Positions 14,720 to 31,224 of a stretch of 64,000 bases of DNA are shown in pieces. The notes under the pieces are model-generated. The model was not told the origin of the DNA and did not search any database. It was given only the letters and a program-made list of their open reading frames with translations. Position 1 is the stretch's first letter, and each line of letters begins with the position of its first letter. The DNA lies in the NCBI RefSeq assembly GCF_011603255.1, contig NZ_JAANCM010000002.1:186001-250000 (forward strand), written 5' to 3'. A program made the translations under genes and the position numbers. This DNA comes from Ferranicluibacter rubi (GTDB lineage: Bacteria; Pseudomonadota; Alphaproteobacteria; Rhizobiales; Rhizobiaceae).

Positions 14720-14767
14720 ATGGTCGGAATGGCCGGATTCGAACCGACGACCCCTTGACCCCCAGTC
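14720..14767. repeat. attL: 3' fragment of tRNA-Pro(GGG)
   Basis: These 48 bases are identical to 31177-31224, which is the 3' part of the intact tRNA-Pro gene from the anticodon loop to CCA. Identity stops abruptly at 14768. This is the left junction of the integrated element; the integrase starts 148 bases further in. Confidence 0.93.
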
Positions 14768-14884
14768 TAAAAGAACCTCTTTTATAGCCATTCCTAGCAT
14801 TGGATCGCATAGCTTTATCTGTTGTAATTGCAACGTAATCCAACCGATGTCCCCTTGACTGATACGGGCTACCTGCCAATATGC

Positions 14885-14901
14885 TGGCTACAATGTGGCT
14901 A
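14885..14901. repeat. left subterminal 17-bp repeat, candidate integrase arm site
   Basis: TGGCTACAATGTGGCTA is repeated exactly at 31113-31129, just inside the other end, in the same orientation. Each copy contains TGGCTA twice, 11 bases apart. Position and internal repetition fit integrase arm-type or excisionase sites. Confidence 0.5.
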
Positions 14902-14914
14902 TAAAAGGTTGGGC

Positions 14915-16156
14915 ATGGGAAAACTGAAGATCACGGCAGCGAGCGTTTCAGAGGTCATGGGGAGCGCGCTACCAGCGACGACGACATTCTTCTTCGACGA
15001 GGATCTAGCAGGGTTTGGCTTCTATAGAACGGCCGCCGGCACTGGCACGTATTTCGTGGAATACAGGCCTGTCGCAGGTGGCACGAAGCGGCGGGTGAAG
15101 TTGGGTAGGGTAGGGACGTTGAAGCCGGCCGAGGCCAGGGAGGCTGCTCGCAAGGCTGTCGCGCACGCTGGCCTTGGCAAGGACTTGGCCAAGGAGCGGA
15201 CTGACCATCGTGCGAGCGTAAGCGTGAAGGCACTCGTTGACACCTACATCGATGAGTTTGTCGCGACCAACCGCAAGGCGTCATCGGTCGAGTTCTATCG
15301 CACGATTGCCAAGAAGCATGTCGAGCCGCGGCTCGGATCGATGAAGGCTGTTGGTGTTACCCGCGTTGACGTCCAGCGCGCGCATAGTGCGATGTCGAAG
15401 GAGGCAAGGGTATCGGCGAACCGCGCGATGAAACTGCTGTCCGCTGCGTACGGATGGGGCGCGAAACACGGATATGTGCAAGAGGGGTTCAATCCAGCCT
15501 CAGGCGTCGATTTGAACAAGGAACAGGGCCGCGAGCGGTTCTTGTCAGAAACAGAAATGGCACGTTTGGGTGAAGCGATGCGCGAGGCAGAGACGGTAGG
15601 GTTCGAGGCCGTTGTGTCAAAGGCAAAACACGCGCCGAAAGGCCAGCGCAGCGTCATGCATCCATCAGTGACTGGCGCAATTCGGTTGCTAATGTTGACA
15701 GGCATGCGCCTGCGCGAAGTCCTGCATTTGCGCTGGGATGAAGTTGATGTTCAACGCGGCCTGCTCTTTCTGCCCGACAGCAAGACTGGCCGCCGCACGA
15801 TCGTTCTCTCGGCGGCAGCGGTCGAGGTTCTAGCCGGCCTGCCAAAGATCGGTATCTATGTCGTCGCGGGAGACAGTGCTGGACTGCCTGACGAAAAGCC
15901 GCGTGCGGATCTAAAGCGCCCGTGGACGGCCATTACCAAGCGAGCCGGTCTTGATGGGCTGCGGATACATGACTTGAGACATTCGTTCGCTTCGGTAGGT
16001 GCCTGGTCCGGTCTCGGGCTTCCCGTCATCGGCAAGTTGCTCGGCCATTCTGATGCGAAGACGACTCAGAGATACGCGCATCTGGACGCAGATTCGTCCC
16101 GACGCGCTGCAGACGCTATCGCCTCTCAGATTTCAACGGCCATGGGGGTGAAGTGA
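14915..16156 (+). CDS. int: site-specific tyrosine integrase (P4-type)
   Basis: Catalyses insertion and excision of the island at tRNA-Pro. 413 residues: an N-terminal arm-binding domain (FGFYRTAAGTGTYFVEYR), a core-binding SAM-like domain (about 100-190), and a C-terminal catalytic domain. Catalytic residues seen: Arg about 265 in LTGMRLREVLHLRW, His352 and Arg355 in HDLRHSFAS, His378 in LLGHSDAKTTQRYAHL, with nucleophile Tyr387. The start MGKLKITAAS is preferred over an upstream frame with no family similarity. Confidence 0.95.
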   Translation: MGKLKITAASVSEVMGSALPATTTFFFDEDLAGFGFYRTAAGTGTYFVEYRPVAGGTKRRVKLGRVGTLKPAEAREAARKAVAHAGLGKDLAKERTDHRASVSVKALVDTYIDEFVATNRKASSVEFYRTIAKKHVEPRLGSMKAVGVTRVDVQRAHSAMSKEARVSANRAMKLLSAAYGWGAKHGYVQEGFNPASGVDLNKEQGRERFLSETEMARLGEAMREAETVGFEAVVSKAKHAPKGQRSVMHPSVTGAIRLLMLTGMRLREVLHLRWDEVDVQRGLLFLPDSKTGRRTIVLSAAAVEVLAGLPKIGIYVVAGDSAGLPDEKPRADLKRPWTAITKRAGLDGLRIHDLRHSFASVGAWSGLGLPVIGKLLGHSDAKTTQRYAHLDADSSRRAADAIASQISTAMGVK

Positions 16157-16545
16157 TGGCGGCGCTTCCGTTTCCGTACAGCCAAGCGGCAAACGCGATC
16201 GAGAACGCGATATGGGAGGGTAGGGCAGAGGAGGCCCTGCAGAAGCTTATTCACGCTCTCAGGCAAAAGCCGGACGACCGAGCCGTGAGGCATGCCGCGG
16301 CCAACTGGATCGAGCGCATCGGATTGCCGCCAGGTGCGCAGAAACGCCTGCGCAATGGCAATCCGGAACTGCCGGAAGACTGGCTGGATATCTCGCAAAT
16401 GTTCGGTGAACTGCAGGGTGCGGGACGCACATATGCAGAGGCCGAGGCAAAGACCGCCGCCCACTTCGGATGTAGCAATCGCCATGTGCAAAGGTGTGTC
16501 GCCGAATGGAGAAGGGCGTCGGCTTACCGCGAGGAAGAGGAGTAA
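16156..16545 (+). CDS. hypothetical protein with C-terminal HTH-like segment
   Basis: 129 residues; the ATG overlaps the integrase stop, so the two are coupled. Residues about 30-60 form a short helical repeat (LIHALRQKPDDRAVRHAAANWI). The C terminus AAHFGCSNRHVQRCVAEWRRA looks like a helix-turn-helix with a recognition helix. Its place between int and the AlpA-like gene suggests a regulatory or recombination-directionality role (inference). Confidence 0.7.
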   Translation: MAALPFPYSQAANAIENAIWEGRAEEALQKLIHALRQKPDDRAVRHAAANWIERIGLPPGAQKRLRNGNPELPEDWLDISQMFGELQGAGRTYAEAEAKTAAHFGCSNRHVQRCVAEWRRASAYREEEE

Positions 16546-16625
16546 CCGAACGAAGTTCAAACATCGTGCGGCTGATTCTTCGGGCGTCCAAGCGCATATA
16601 CCATCATCCAACACGGAGGGCGCGA

Positions 16626-16838
16626 ATGACAAAGAATCTAAGGGTACAGCAGGCGGCGGAATATCTGGGCCTGTCGAAATCATTTCTGGACAAAGCCAGG
16701 TGCTACGGCGGCGGTCCCGTTTTCGCAAAGCTTGGGTCGAGCGTGATCTACTCCACGGCTGATCTCGACTCATGGGTTGCAGAGCGTCGCGTAATCGCCG
16801 CGAACGATAACCGTCCGACCGTGAAGGTGAGCGCATGA
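16626..16838 (+). CDS. AlpA-like / excisionase-family HTH protein
   Basis: 70 residues. MerR-type short HTH: LRVQQAAEYLGLSKSFLDKARCYGGGPVFAKLGSSVIYSTADLDSWVAER, the pattern of AlpA/HTH_17 proteins that direct excision or activate satellite genes. CGGAGG lies just upstream. It overlaps the next gene by four bases. In PICI-type satellites AlpA is the master activator; that role here is inferred from position. Confidence 0.85.
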   Translation: MTKNLRVQQAAEYLGLSKSFLDKARCYGGGPVFAKLGSSVIYSTADLDSWVAERRVIAANDNRPTVKVSA

Positions 16839-17068
16839 GCAAGAAGCCTTGGGCGATCCGACATTTCACAATCTTGCTGGCTGTGGCTCCCGACTTTGTG
16901 CATGCCGATTTCGACGTAGAGCTTAATGACGGCAATGCATTTCGCCACGTGAAGCTAAGTCACGACGGCCAGCGGTTTCGTCTCGAGGGATTTACAGCCG
17001 GGCCTGATCTGACCGGTGAAGTACTAACGGCCGCGCTTGCTAAGCGGTTCGACGCACCGCCCGCTTAG
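16835..17068 (+). CDS. small hypothetical protein
   Basis: 77 residues, translationally coupled to the AlpA-like gene by an ATGA overlap. Predicted mixed alpha/beta with no transmembrane segment or known motif. The acidic segment DFDVELNDGNAFRHVKL resembles small phage-accessory proteins only in general character. Function unknown. Confidence 0.6.
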   Translation: MSKKPWAIRHFTILLAVAPDFVHADFDVELNDGNAFRHVKLSHDGQRFRLEGFTAGPDLTGEVLTAALAKRFDAPPA

Positions 17069-30426: not shown

Positions 30427-30432
30427 AAGTTC

Positions 30433-30509
30433 GCCCCTGTATCGGCGCGGGACTTCTAACCCGACAGCCGTAGAGGATGACGCCAGTTCGAATCTGGCCA
30501 GGGGCTCCA
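30433..30509 (+). ncRNA. tRNA-like sequence with atypical D and anticodon arms
   Basis: 77 bases. The acceptor stem GCCCCTG / CAGGGGC is a perfect 7 bp, the T arm GCCAG-TTCGAAT-CTGGC is perfect, and CCA is encoded. The D arm is not canonical. The centre folds as CGGC-G-CGGG, an eight-base loop ACTTCTAA, and CCCG-ACA-GCCG. If read as an anticodon loop it would present UCU (Arg) in an oversized loop. Degenerate tRNA or tRNA mimic. Confidence 0.55.
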
Positions 30510-30547
30510 GGCCACAAAGTGTGTATCCTCACCTGTGACGACAGCGG

Positions 30548-31075
30548 CTATTGCGACTGAGGATTCATCTCAACAATTAGCTCGCCGTGCTTCACGCCAT
30601 GTTGAGTTGAAGAGTATCCTATCCATTTTCCCGCGCCGGATGTCCGAGTAGGGTGCAGCACAAACTGGAACGCTCCGTGGTAGCCTAGCTTCCGATCGTT
30701 CTTATCGTACCAAATGCCGGTGACGGTGCTGCCTACGAGCTTGCCAGCGAAGATATAGTCAGACACCTTAATGCCGTCGCGATATCCAGCTGCGATAATT
30801 GCAACTGAACTAAACCCTCGCCAAATATGTGCGCTAGTCTTGTTCTCACTCTGAAAGGAACTGCTTGAAGCGCTCCACGAAAGCTCGCAACTCCCGCGGA
30901 GTGTCTGGGGTAGCCAGGTCAAACCCAGAAAGAATGAGCAAACCCGTATACGAAACACCGTAGGAGCAAACGCATATCCAAGGTGCCTTATAAACGAGGC
31001 GAGAACGGGGCGAGCAATCGCTACTAACAGCGTGCCGGACACCAGAGAGGCCAGAAGTGAGTGGAGCTGGTCCAT
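30548..31075 (-). CDS. hypothetical membrane-anchored protein with beta-rich domain
   Basis: 175 residues. N-terminal half has one or two hydrophobic segments (SLLASLVSGTLLVAIARPVL and a stretch near residues 40-55). The C-terminal ~90 residues are beta-rich, with TGIWYD, GYHGAFQFVLHP and GKWIGYSS. Anchor plus small barrel-like domain recalls cyclic-nucleotide-sensing effectors such as Cap15, but no such family is assigned. Cargo position beside attR. Confidence 0.55.
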   Translation of the reverse strand: MDQLHSLLASLVSGTLLVAIARPVLASFIRHLGYAFAPTVFRIRVCSFFLGLTWLPQTLRGSCELSWSASSSSFQSENKTSAHIWRGFSSVAIIAAGYRDGIKVSDYIFAGKLVGSTVTGIWYDKNDRKLGYHGAFQFVLHPTRTSGAGKWIGYSSTQHGVKHGELIVEMNPQSQ

Positions 31076-31109
31076 GATCCCGGCTCCACTAAACGAGCTC
31101 TTTTAAAGG

Positions 31110-31147
31110 AGTTGGCTACAATGTGGCTACAAAATTTTTAGCCAACT
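31110..31147. repeat. right subterminal repeat and inverted repeat, candidate arm sites
   Basis: The 17-bp TGGCTACAATGTGGCTA (31113-31129) matches the left end exactly. AGTTGGCTA (31110-31118) also pairs with TAGCCAACT (31139-31147). Integrase arm sites, or part of the tRNA-Pro terminator on the minus strand. Confidence 0.5.
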
Positions 31148-31176
31148 GCTTAGCTGGGGGCTAAGTCTTTGTTTTG

Positions 31177-31224
31177 ATGGTCGGAATGGCCGGATTCGAA
31201 CCGACGACCCCTTGACCCCCAGTC
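31177..31224. repeat. attR: 3' part of intact tRNA-Pro
   Basis: Identical to attL (14720-14767) over 48 bases. The element therefore supplies the 3' half of the working tRNA and keeps it intact. Confidence 0.93.

Follow-up and report, generated by a model that had tools for sequence, protein, structure and literature searches.

A Rhizobiales chromosomal island with a short-delta HK97-type capsid protein resembles phage-inducible satellites

Results and Discussion

A Capsid-Encoding Island in tRNA-Pro

The Ferranicluibacter rubi genome (RefSeq assembly GCF_011603255.1) harbors an island of 16.5 kb at positions 14720-31224 of a 64,000-nucleotide stretch (contig NZ_JAANCM010000002.1, positions 186,001 to 250,000), hereafter the window. 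Its genes and relatives indicate that the island is probably a satellite resembling the phage-inducible chromosomal islands (PICIs), one that would make small heads from, or with, its own HK97-fold capsid protein while relying on the portal, protease, large terminase (TerL) and tail of a helper phage. The evidence comes from the scar of its mobility, its gene content, its recurrence in other genomes, capsid and small-terminase (TerS) lineages that are confined to satellites in our samples, the shortened delta domain of the capsid protein, and a sister element embedded in a prophage of the likely helper type.

Two identical 48-bp direct repeats, attL at 14720-14767 and attR at 31177-31224, bound the island and enclose an interval of 16,505 bp with a G+C content of 0.565, whereas most 1-kb segments of the flanks lie at 0.61-0.69. 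The attR copy lies inside an intact tRNA-Pro(GGG) gene (31178-31254, minus strand) and forms its 3′ part. An exact 48-bp repeat within 19 kb cannot be put down to chance, and the attachment (att) repeats, integration site and size given in the original prediction, which had been made from the sequence alone, all hold. Examination of 20 kb around the site in each of six other genomes of the genus showed that the left-flank MerR-type gene and the tRNA gene are present, that the 48-bp site is single-copy and that the island sequence has no match there; the site is thus otherwise free of an island-type element in all six. In two of these genomes (L091 and L092), about 4 kb of other DNA separates the MerR gene from the tRNA gene, and this region contains neither a second att copy nor island sequence. 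A 47-bp copy of the same att, at 91% identity, is found at locus L072, whose integrase is 58% identical to that of the island.

Head Genes Present and Absent

The integrase, AlpA-like, replication, HK97-type capsid and P27 TerS genes named in the original prediction are confirmed by Pfam and PHROG matches (start codons were assigned by a scoring script). The tyrosine integrase gene (14915-16156, longest open reading frame [ORF] from 14828; PF00589, 3.4e-21) is followed shortly 3′ by a gene for an AlpA-like regulator (16626-16838; HTH_17, 1.7e-6; phrog_66, 6.2e-7) and by one for a replication initiation protein (17395-18606; phrog_270, 3.5e-17; 54% identical to that of L073). Further to the right lie the genes for a 362-aa HK97-fold capsid protein homologue with a shortened delta domain (22814-23902; PF05065, Phage_capsid, 1.8e-55) and a P27-type TerS (24132-24452; PF05119, 1.5e-6). 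Upstream of this head-gene slot is orf172 (21999-22517), a hallmark gene of these elements. All six genes are on the plus strand.

The predicted absence of TerL, portal, protease, connector and tail genes withstood a three-way test by tblastn, genome-wide Pfam searches and profile models. When a Klebsiella HK97-like phage and Sinorhizobium phage NV1.1.1 supplied the head, connector and tail queries for tblastn, the capsid gene was the sole match in the window (NV1.1.1 gene names other than the capsid were assigned in this analysis, those of the connectors by place only, with PHROG support for TerL, portal and protease). The Pfam models PF04860 and PF03354 match once each in the whole genome, both on contig C42, outside the island. 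Profile models built from relatives and run against the six-frame translation of the island at E ≤ 1 gave scores of just 4.9-6.1 bits outside the capsid and orf172 genes themselves. Specifically, a portal is absent from the island by tblastn, PF04860, the profile models and the run on bounded elements described below, and TerL by tblastn, PF03354 and the profile models. Models and queries for S78- and S49-type head maturation proteases reach only 5.3 bits in the island, other protease types being covered solely by Pfam and PHROG scans of the island ORFs. For head-tail connectors, tblastn with connector-region proteins of the two phages is null and a gp10 model reaches just 6.1 bits. An HNH query has no match in the island, and neither tblastn nor the profile models detect tail genes there. 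Nor do the profile models reveal pseudogenized remnants of TerL, portal or tail genes, which the original prediction had named as evidence that would count against it. Lysis genes, also predicted to be missing, have no Pfam match among the island ORFs scanned, although a novel lysis gene would escape such a scan. A shared DNA site upstream of TerS was sought as well; one 10-mer occurs in three of four elements and is not in the window.

The Gene Set Recurs in Portal-Less Elements

The gene set is found in other att-bounded elements of Rhizobiales that have no portal or TerL of their own. A search of 297 family genomes with the capsid protein gave a match at E ≤ 1e-60 in 32. Most of the 20 capsid regions examined are prophages with HK97-type gene order, but the closest ones include four small elements (L034, L035, L036 and L037). 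The orf172 profile matches 11 of 394 family genomes, eight of them strongly, and three further genomes, two strongly, in a 397-genome sample of the order, and finds nothing at E ≤ 0.01 among 50,697 phage records. Scanning genome and viral contigs with a single capsid sequence yielded no confirmed relative, but scans with an alignment as the query, covering the best 80 of 124 and the best 80 of at least 515 confirmed loci, succeeded. Relatives obtained in this way are in Agrobacterium rubi (G247), Ochrobactrum sp. CM-21-5 (G366), Devosia elaeis (G643), Aurantimonas endophytica (G372), Phyllobacterium sp. YR531 (G063), Phyllobacterium sp. 628, Rhizobium rhizogenes and IMG/VR records. No description of such elements in Rhizobiales was apparent in the open-access literature searched, subscription papers lying mostly outside this search.

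Six capsid-bearing elements, the island included, are bounded by att repeats and span 15.8-19.2 kb; five of them measure 15.8-16.5 kb, and G372 measures 19.2 kb. The att sites are in tRNA-Phe in G247 and G367 (51 and 54 bp), in tRNA-Arg in G179 (41 bp) and in tRNA-Ser in G372 (15 bp, weak), and G366 has a 16-bp repeat; the repeats of G372, G018 and G071 (15 bp) and of G366 (16 bp) are weaker than those of 41-54 bp. None of the six bounded elements has a portal, TerL or protease match at E ≤ 0.01, whereas G018, which resembles the capsid-forming PICIs (cf-PICIs), matches all three in the same run. The portal-less set also occurs in a second family (Devosia). Among the relatives, L037 and L127 are cf-PICI-like, with portal, protease, capsid, TerS and TerL genes, and have relatives of AlpA, orf79 and the replication gene in common with the island. 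Neither an att repeat nor an integrase was found in G063, and no integrase was found in L129; G311 shows no convincing att and a single integrase match beyond a tRNA-Arg, outside the shared genes. These three may be incomplete elements.

A tape-measure model matches 13 of the 16 capsid-bearing members, the exceptions being the window, L200 and L035, the last with a homologue detected by BLAST instead. Matches to a gp10-like model in 10 members, a tail-chaperone model in nine and a fibre-like model in seven (none in the window) arise partly by construction, as these models were built from the same sisters, although the fibres of L068 and L069 are named independently by PHROG. L034 matches TMP_3 (4.9e-49) and HK97-gp10 (7.9e-13). 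Among L034, L036, L066-L069, L112, L113, L129, L133 and L197-L200, most have a tape-measure gene and many have chaperone, gp10-like or fibre-like genes, without the rest of a tail. Vibrio PICI-like elements (PLEs) and some cf-PICIs similarly encode tape-measure genes (PMC12987554), which the window island does not.

Elsewhere in a chromosome of the same genus, at L038:9795-10220 (G094:C10), a capsid fragment comprising residues 57-197, at 78-79% identity and with a helix-turn-helix (HTH) gene nearby, is apparently a relic of such an element.

Satellite Capsid Proteins Have a Short Delta Domain

The original prediction had counted the same genes inside a full prophage as evidence against it. 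No such case appeared among the 184 capsid loci measured: 21 have orf172 without a portal, 153 have a portal without orf172, 10 have neither and none has both. Comparison of the proteins, with duplicates removed, shows that the segment before a fixed anchor comprises 91-102 residues in 16 satellite proteins and 111-201, with a median of 131, in 40 phage representatives, with no overlap. The island protein has 94 residues before the anchor, about 37 fewer than the phage median. It is 362 aa long, compared with about 403, has a shell domain of normal length and shares 57% identity with the capsid protein of NV1.1.1. Four of the 16 satellite capsid proteins are nearly identical to one another (L068, L197, L198 and L199); L197 was added by hand, as its contig begins immediately upstream of the capsid gene and its capsid protein is 98% identical to that of L068.

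A quick tree computed from the shell domain, with the delta region excluded and support given by the Shimodaira-Hasegawa-like approximate likelihood ratio test (SH-aLRT) rather than bootstrap, divides the satellites into two clades, one of nine that includes the window (SH-aLRT 100) and one of seven (SH-aLRT 99). The two cf-like elements and L174, a Mesorhizobium phage, are placed close to the clade of the window, and the other 39 phage rows fall outside a 19-row group (support 92). The tree leaves out seven duplicate loci, capsid ORFs cut by a contig end, cores shorter than 250 aa, loci with neither orf172 nor portal and, as near copies, 110 of the 150 portal-bearing loci. The placement of the satellites in two clades suggests that the delta shortening probably occurred in one or two events and has been kept since. 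Comparison of the window capsid gene with three relatives gave ratios of nonsynonymous to synonymous change (pN/pS) of 0.30-0.31, with synonymous sites near saturation, indicating that the gene is constrained and not decaying.

Several capsid loci show features of their own. The capsid gene at L133:4474-5604 looks recombinant, in that its neighbors and N-terminal residues resemble those of L068/L034 (83-98%) and the protein is nearest to that of L069 (65%). Directly 3′ of the capsid gene, L068 has a cold-shock protein gene (L068:10872-11105, PHROG), and small proteins are encoded at that place also in L067 (10893-11319) and several sisters. In the 76-kb IMG/VR record that contains L197 (G773), a satellite-type capsid gene stands at the very start, and a phage-type one lies 36 kb away.

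A Satellite TerS Lineage and an Apparently Exchangeable Slot

The TerS type of the window occurs in nine places in eight of 394 genomes at E ≤ 1e-15, all of them in satellite-like elements, and a search of the phage records with TerS gave no match. Besides those of the window and G366, the seven places (L072, L073 and L286-L290) are elements of the same build. In the sequence available these seven have no capsid, portal or TerL model match, with five (L072, L287, L288, L289 and L290) running into a contig end; likewise, none of the nine elements contains a portal or TerL match over the stretch available. Between the orf172-like gene and TerS, six of the seven (L073 and L286-L290) encode a protease-like protein of the S78 type (PF04586, 1.9e-41 in L073), and L072 has a ClpP-type gene (PF00574, 5.6e-18). 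These protease-like genes occupy the position of the capsid gene in the window, and thus the slot seems to hold exchangeable head genes.

A Sister Element Nested in a Prophage of the Likely Helper Type

In Ochrobactrum sp. CM-21-5 (G366:C28; L067/L119), the 16.0-kb element is located at the very 3′ end of a prophage TerL gene, with the portal gene on its other side, and the TerL reading frame stays open at the element. Five related phages (L122, L209, L210, L044 and L045) are contiguous across the insertion point, the alignments on its two sides overlapping by 21 bases, and four more (L208, L211, L213 and L216) align at this point on the portal side only. The host prophage is 62%, 74%, 80% and 84% identical to NV1.1.1 in TerL, portal, protease and capsid, respectively. 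This nesting indicates that NV1.1.1-like phages are the likely helper type. Although the sister lies within a full prophage, it forms a distinct element, bounded by att repeats and carrying an integrase of its own, and its genes are not in matching order. Helper-embedded PICIs, for which a terminase site is among the known insertion sites (PMC10111431), resemble this sister in their insertion into a prophage late gene; the window island is instead in tRNA-Pro. What is apparently the same satellite-prophage pair is held in one 75-kb IMG/VR record (L246).

Proposed Mechanism and Comparison With Known Satellites

In the scheme that we favor, whose induction, packaging, small-head and helper-protease steps we infer, integrase and AlpA would excise the island and the replication protein would amplify it. 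A helper phage of the HK97/NV1.1.1 type would trigger induction, contribute portal, prohead protease, TerL and tail, and bring about lysis, and the satellite TerS would redirect the helper TerL onto satellite DNA. The short-delta capsid protein would enter or form the procapsid, giving a smaller shell that could accommodate about 16 kb and not the helper genome, and its delta domain would be removed by the helper protease.

The closest precedent is Ccm, found in SaPIbov5 and other cos-type Staphylococcus aureus pathogenicity islands (SaPIs). SaPIbov5 Ccm is an HK97-fold capsid homologue of 355 aa compared with 402 in its helper, with a delta domain of 87 rather than 128 residues (41 shorter); it sits at the pentamers and converts a head that would be prolate into a small T=4 one, forms no shell alone, and comes from a genome in which no protease is reported (PMC8569155). 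The discoverers of Ccm, in whose model its delta domain is 44 residues shorter, remarked on this shortness, and delta length is said to correlate with capsid size (PMC5052747). The island capsid protein departs from its phage kin in a similar way, its delta domain being about 40 residues shorter and no other head-shell genes lying beside it, which suggests that it may redirect the size of the helper head; its deletion apparently arose independently of that in Ccm. The two systems differ in that their host groups are unrelated, SaPIbov5 contains a helper cos site and the island has its own P27-type TerS, and Ccm is 24% identical to the protein of its helper, compared with 57% for the island and NV1.1.1.

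Judged by its sequence, the island is best named a PICI-like satellite of the Ccm type. It displays the marks of Gram-negative PICIs that we looked for: integrase, AlpA and replication genes at one end, a length of 16,505 bp, a tRNA-Pro att, no complete structural module and no lysis match, and element-private genes (orf172 and the TerS type). The Gram-negative PICIs EcCICFT073 and PmCI172 similarly combine integrase, AlpA and replication genes, 10-20 kb, a specific att and, frequently, a capsid homologue. However, the island differs from them in its phage-initiator-type replication gene (phrog_270), orf172 and its Rhizobiales hosts. The original interpretation is thus supported in part: a satellite is favored by recurrence, att bounds and intact genes, but its placement as a minimal cf-PICI is not supported. 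The cf-PICIs are described as having capsid, protease, portal and connectors together with both terminases and HNH (PMC10690885, PMC13230959), and the island, which shares with them the HK97 capsid protein and TerS and has no tail genes, is without portal, protease, connectors, TerL and HNH. With these five defining parts absent, plain cf-PICI membership was rejected; L037 and L127 fit that class better.

A bolder and more tentative proposal, which we find plausible short of probable, is that a Rhizobiales lineage may have reached the Ccm solution independently, with a sole shell protein of its own whose delta domain, cut by about 37 residues, would serve as the ruler for a smaller shell built with portal and protease of the helper. 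The position between orf172 and TerS might then be an exchangeable head-hijack cassette, holding a capsid gene alone, an S78- or ClpP-type protease gene without a capsid gene, capsid and S49-type protease genes, or portal, protease and capsid genes. If the preferred reading is correct, satellites of both Gram-positive and Gram-negative bacteria would have arrived at small heads repeatedly by delta shortening, and PICI-like satellites with head genes would extend to Rhizobiales, with the nesting in TerL tying one member to a likely helper type. The natural pairs of satellite and phage capsid proteins, about 57% identical and differing notably by the delta deletion, would allow a direct test of whether delta length sets HK97 capsid size, and orf172 would serve as a hallmark gene for finding more such elements.

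Evidence Against the Satellite Reading and Alternative Explanations

A number of observations weigh against the small-head satellite. Small heads have been demonstrated for SaPIbov5, whereas those of the island are predicted from its genes. The lower identity of Ccm (24%) and its lack of a long N-arm, compared with 57% identity and a normal shell domain in the island protein, suggest that the mode of action may differ. In E. coli, deletion of the capsid-like gene of EcCICFT073 leaves interference intact, and the DNA of this element is found in full-size heads (PMC6092414). The short delta domain may represent one or two evolutionary events and not 16. It is also not sharply confined: nine of the 153 portal-bearing rows have fewer than 120 residues before the anchor, and three lie in or below the satellite range, namely L184 (51), which would have up to 134 if translation began earlier, and the pair L168 and L181 (98), in which the anchor is probably misplaced, the part after it being 306 residues instead of about 270 and relatives at about 79-90% identity having 128-129 before it. 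L037, L151 and L127, from two cf-like elements, are intermediate with 106-107. As to gene content, the portal-less, capsid-bearing L112 (G757:C43), which is not att-bounded, has an S49-type head-protease gene (12189-13139) 3′ of its capsid gene, and the absence of a protease is thus not universal in the family; in L070/L071 a portal accompanies a weak orf172 match and a remote capsid protein. Finally, the one portal- and TerL-bearing prophage region of the window genome (G000:C42:194465-199463) encodes a capsid protein only 42% identical to that of the island and is therefore not an obvious helper.

Within the satellite reading, the small head could consist wholly of satellite capsid protein assembled on the helper portal, half-way between a PICI and a cf-PICI. 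A full-length shell domain 57% identical to the phage protein, the constraint on the capsid gene and the intermediate delta domains of the cf-PICI-like relatives (106-107 residues) would suit this sub-case. The island has no portal or protease of its own, however, and Ccm cannot form shells alone (PMC8569155), and we regard a wholly satellite shell as possible but on balance unlikely. Less likely still is that the capsid protein does no more than disrupt assembly of the helper head, or that its gene is a late gene captured as cargo, with the island traveling in full-size heads. Capsid genes are present in 21 of 29 reference Gram-negative PICIs and are said to be unnecessary for transfer (PMC10111431), EcCICFT073 is packaged in full-size heads (PMC6092414), and some sisters have protease-like genes without a capsid gene. 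In contrast, element sizes cluster at about 16 kb in five of the six bounded elements, with G372 at 19.2 kb, the delta domain is shortened in all 16 proteins, and Pasteurella multocida PmCI172, which has a capsid homologue, makes small heads (PMC6092414).

It is improbable that the island is a former cf-PICI, now defective, which has lost portal, protease and TerL: the cf-like L037 and L127, with their AlpA, orf79 and replication-gene relatives, and the lack of a clear integrase or att in G063, G311 and L129 would agree with such a history, but the portal-less set recurs in six att-bounded elements and in a second family (Devosia), and no remnants are present in the island. A decayed prophage, which the original prediction had put forward as the main alternative, would account for the head genes, the integrase and two small genes whose L073 homologues follow a tape-measure gene, but is largely refuted and very improbable given the intact core ORFs, the constrained capsid gene, the absence of portal, TerL and tail remnants, the satellite-only capsid and TerS lineages, the absence of orf172 from phage records and the sites unoccupied in six of six genomes.

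Other Genes of the Island

The remaining genes from the left end to TerS and its partner are all on the plus strand. Next to the integrase gene is one for a small protein with a weak HTH match (16156-16545; HTH_28, 0.0075, below the cut-off, and no PHROG match). The replication gene is preceded by the conserved orf79 (17135-17374), with homologues in L034, L036, L037, L068, L073 and L286, and followed by a conserved gene for an 85-aa protein (18606-18863; query orf119; 47% identical to L067 and 41% to L073). A protein of the orf296 family (21149-21748, longest ORF from 20858) is 41%, 40% and 55% identical to its counterparts in L036, L066 and L198. Against solved structures, the best match of orf172 was FtsK at 0.014, which we take as chance. 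Between orf172 and the capsid gene, in the place of the phage protease, is orf99 (22514-22813), a small protein 50-53% identical to its counterparts in L067 and L035; of two small proteins in this place searched against PHROG, that of L067 had no match and that of L066 a best match of 0.022, of unknown function. Downstream of TerS is its partner gene orf91 (24455-24730), whose counterparts in an alignment of five are 33-36% identical to the window copy.

Further right on the plus strand, two small genes (25430-26312) encode proteins 40% and 29% identical to L073_19/20, whose genes come after the tape-measure gene, with no Pfam or PHROG match; a 228-aa protein at 25626 has no match in phage records, Pfam or PHROG. 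A dGTPase-type HD phosphohydrolase gene (26823-28268, plus strand; PADLOC dGTPase, 2.8e-122) is predicted anti-phage cargo; this defense gene and the conserved orf172 and orf91 had not been named in the original prediction. In the Agrobacterium rubi satellite, a gene for an NA37-type nucleoid-associated protein adjoins one for a RelA/SpoT-domain protein (L034:14754-16849), possibly as defense cargo. The right end of the island carries three minus-strand genes: orf213 (28305-28946; 30% identical to L073_22 and 33% to L286_22), the conserved neighbor of AlpA; AlpA itself (28943-29176; PF05930, Phage_AlpA, 1.4e-11); and a conserved HTH_3 repressor-like gene (29283-29522; 7.9e-8; phrog_3 repressor, 1.4e-5), 43-52% identical to its counterparts in L035, L037, L038 and L073.

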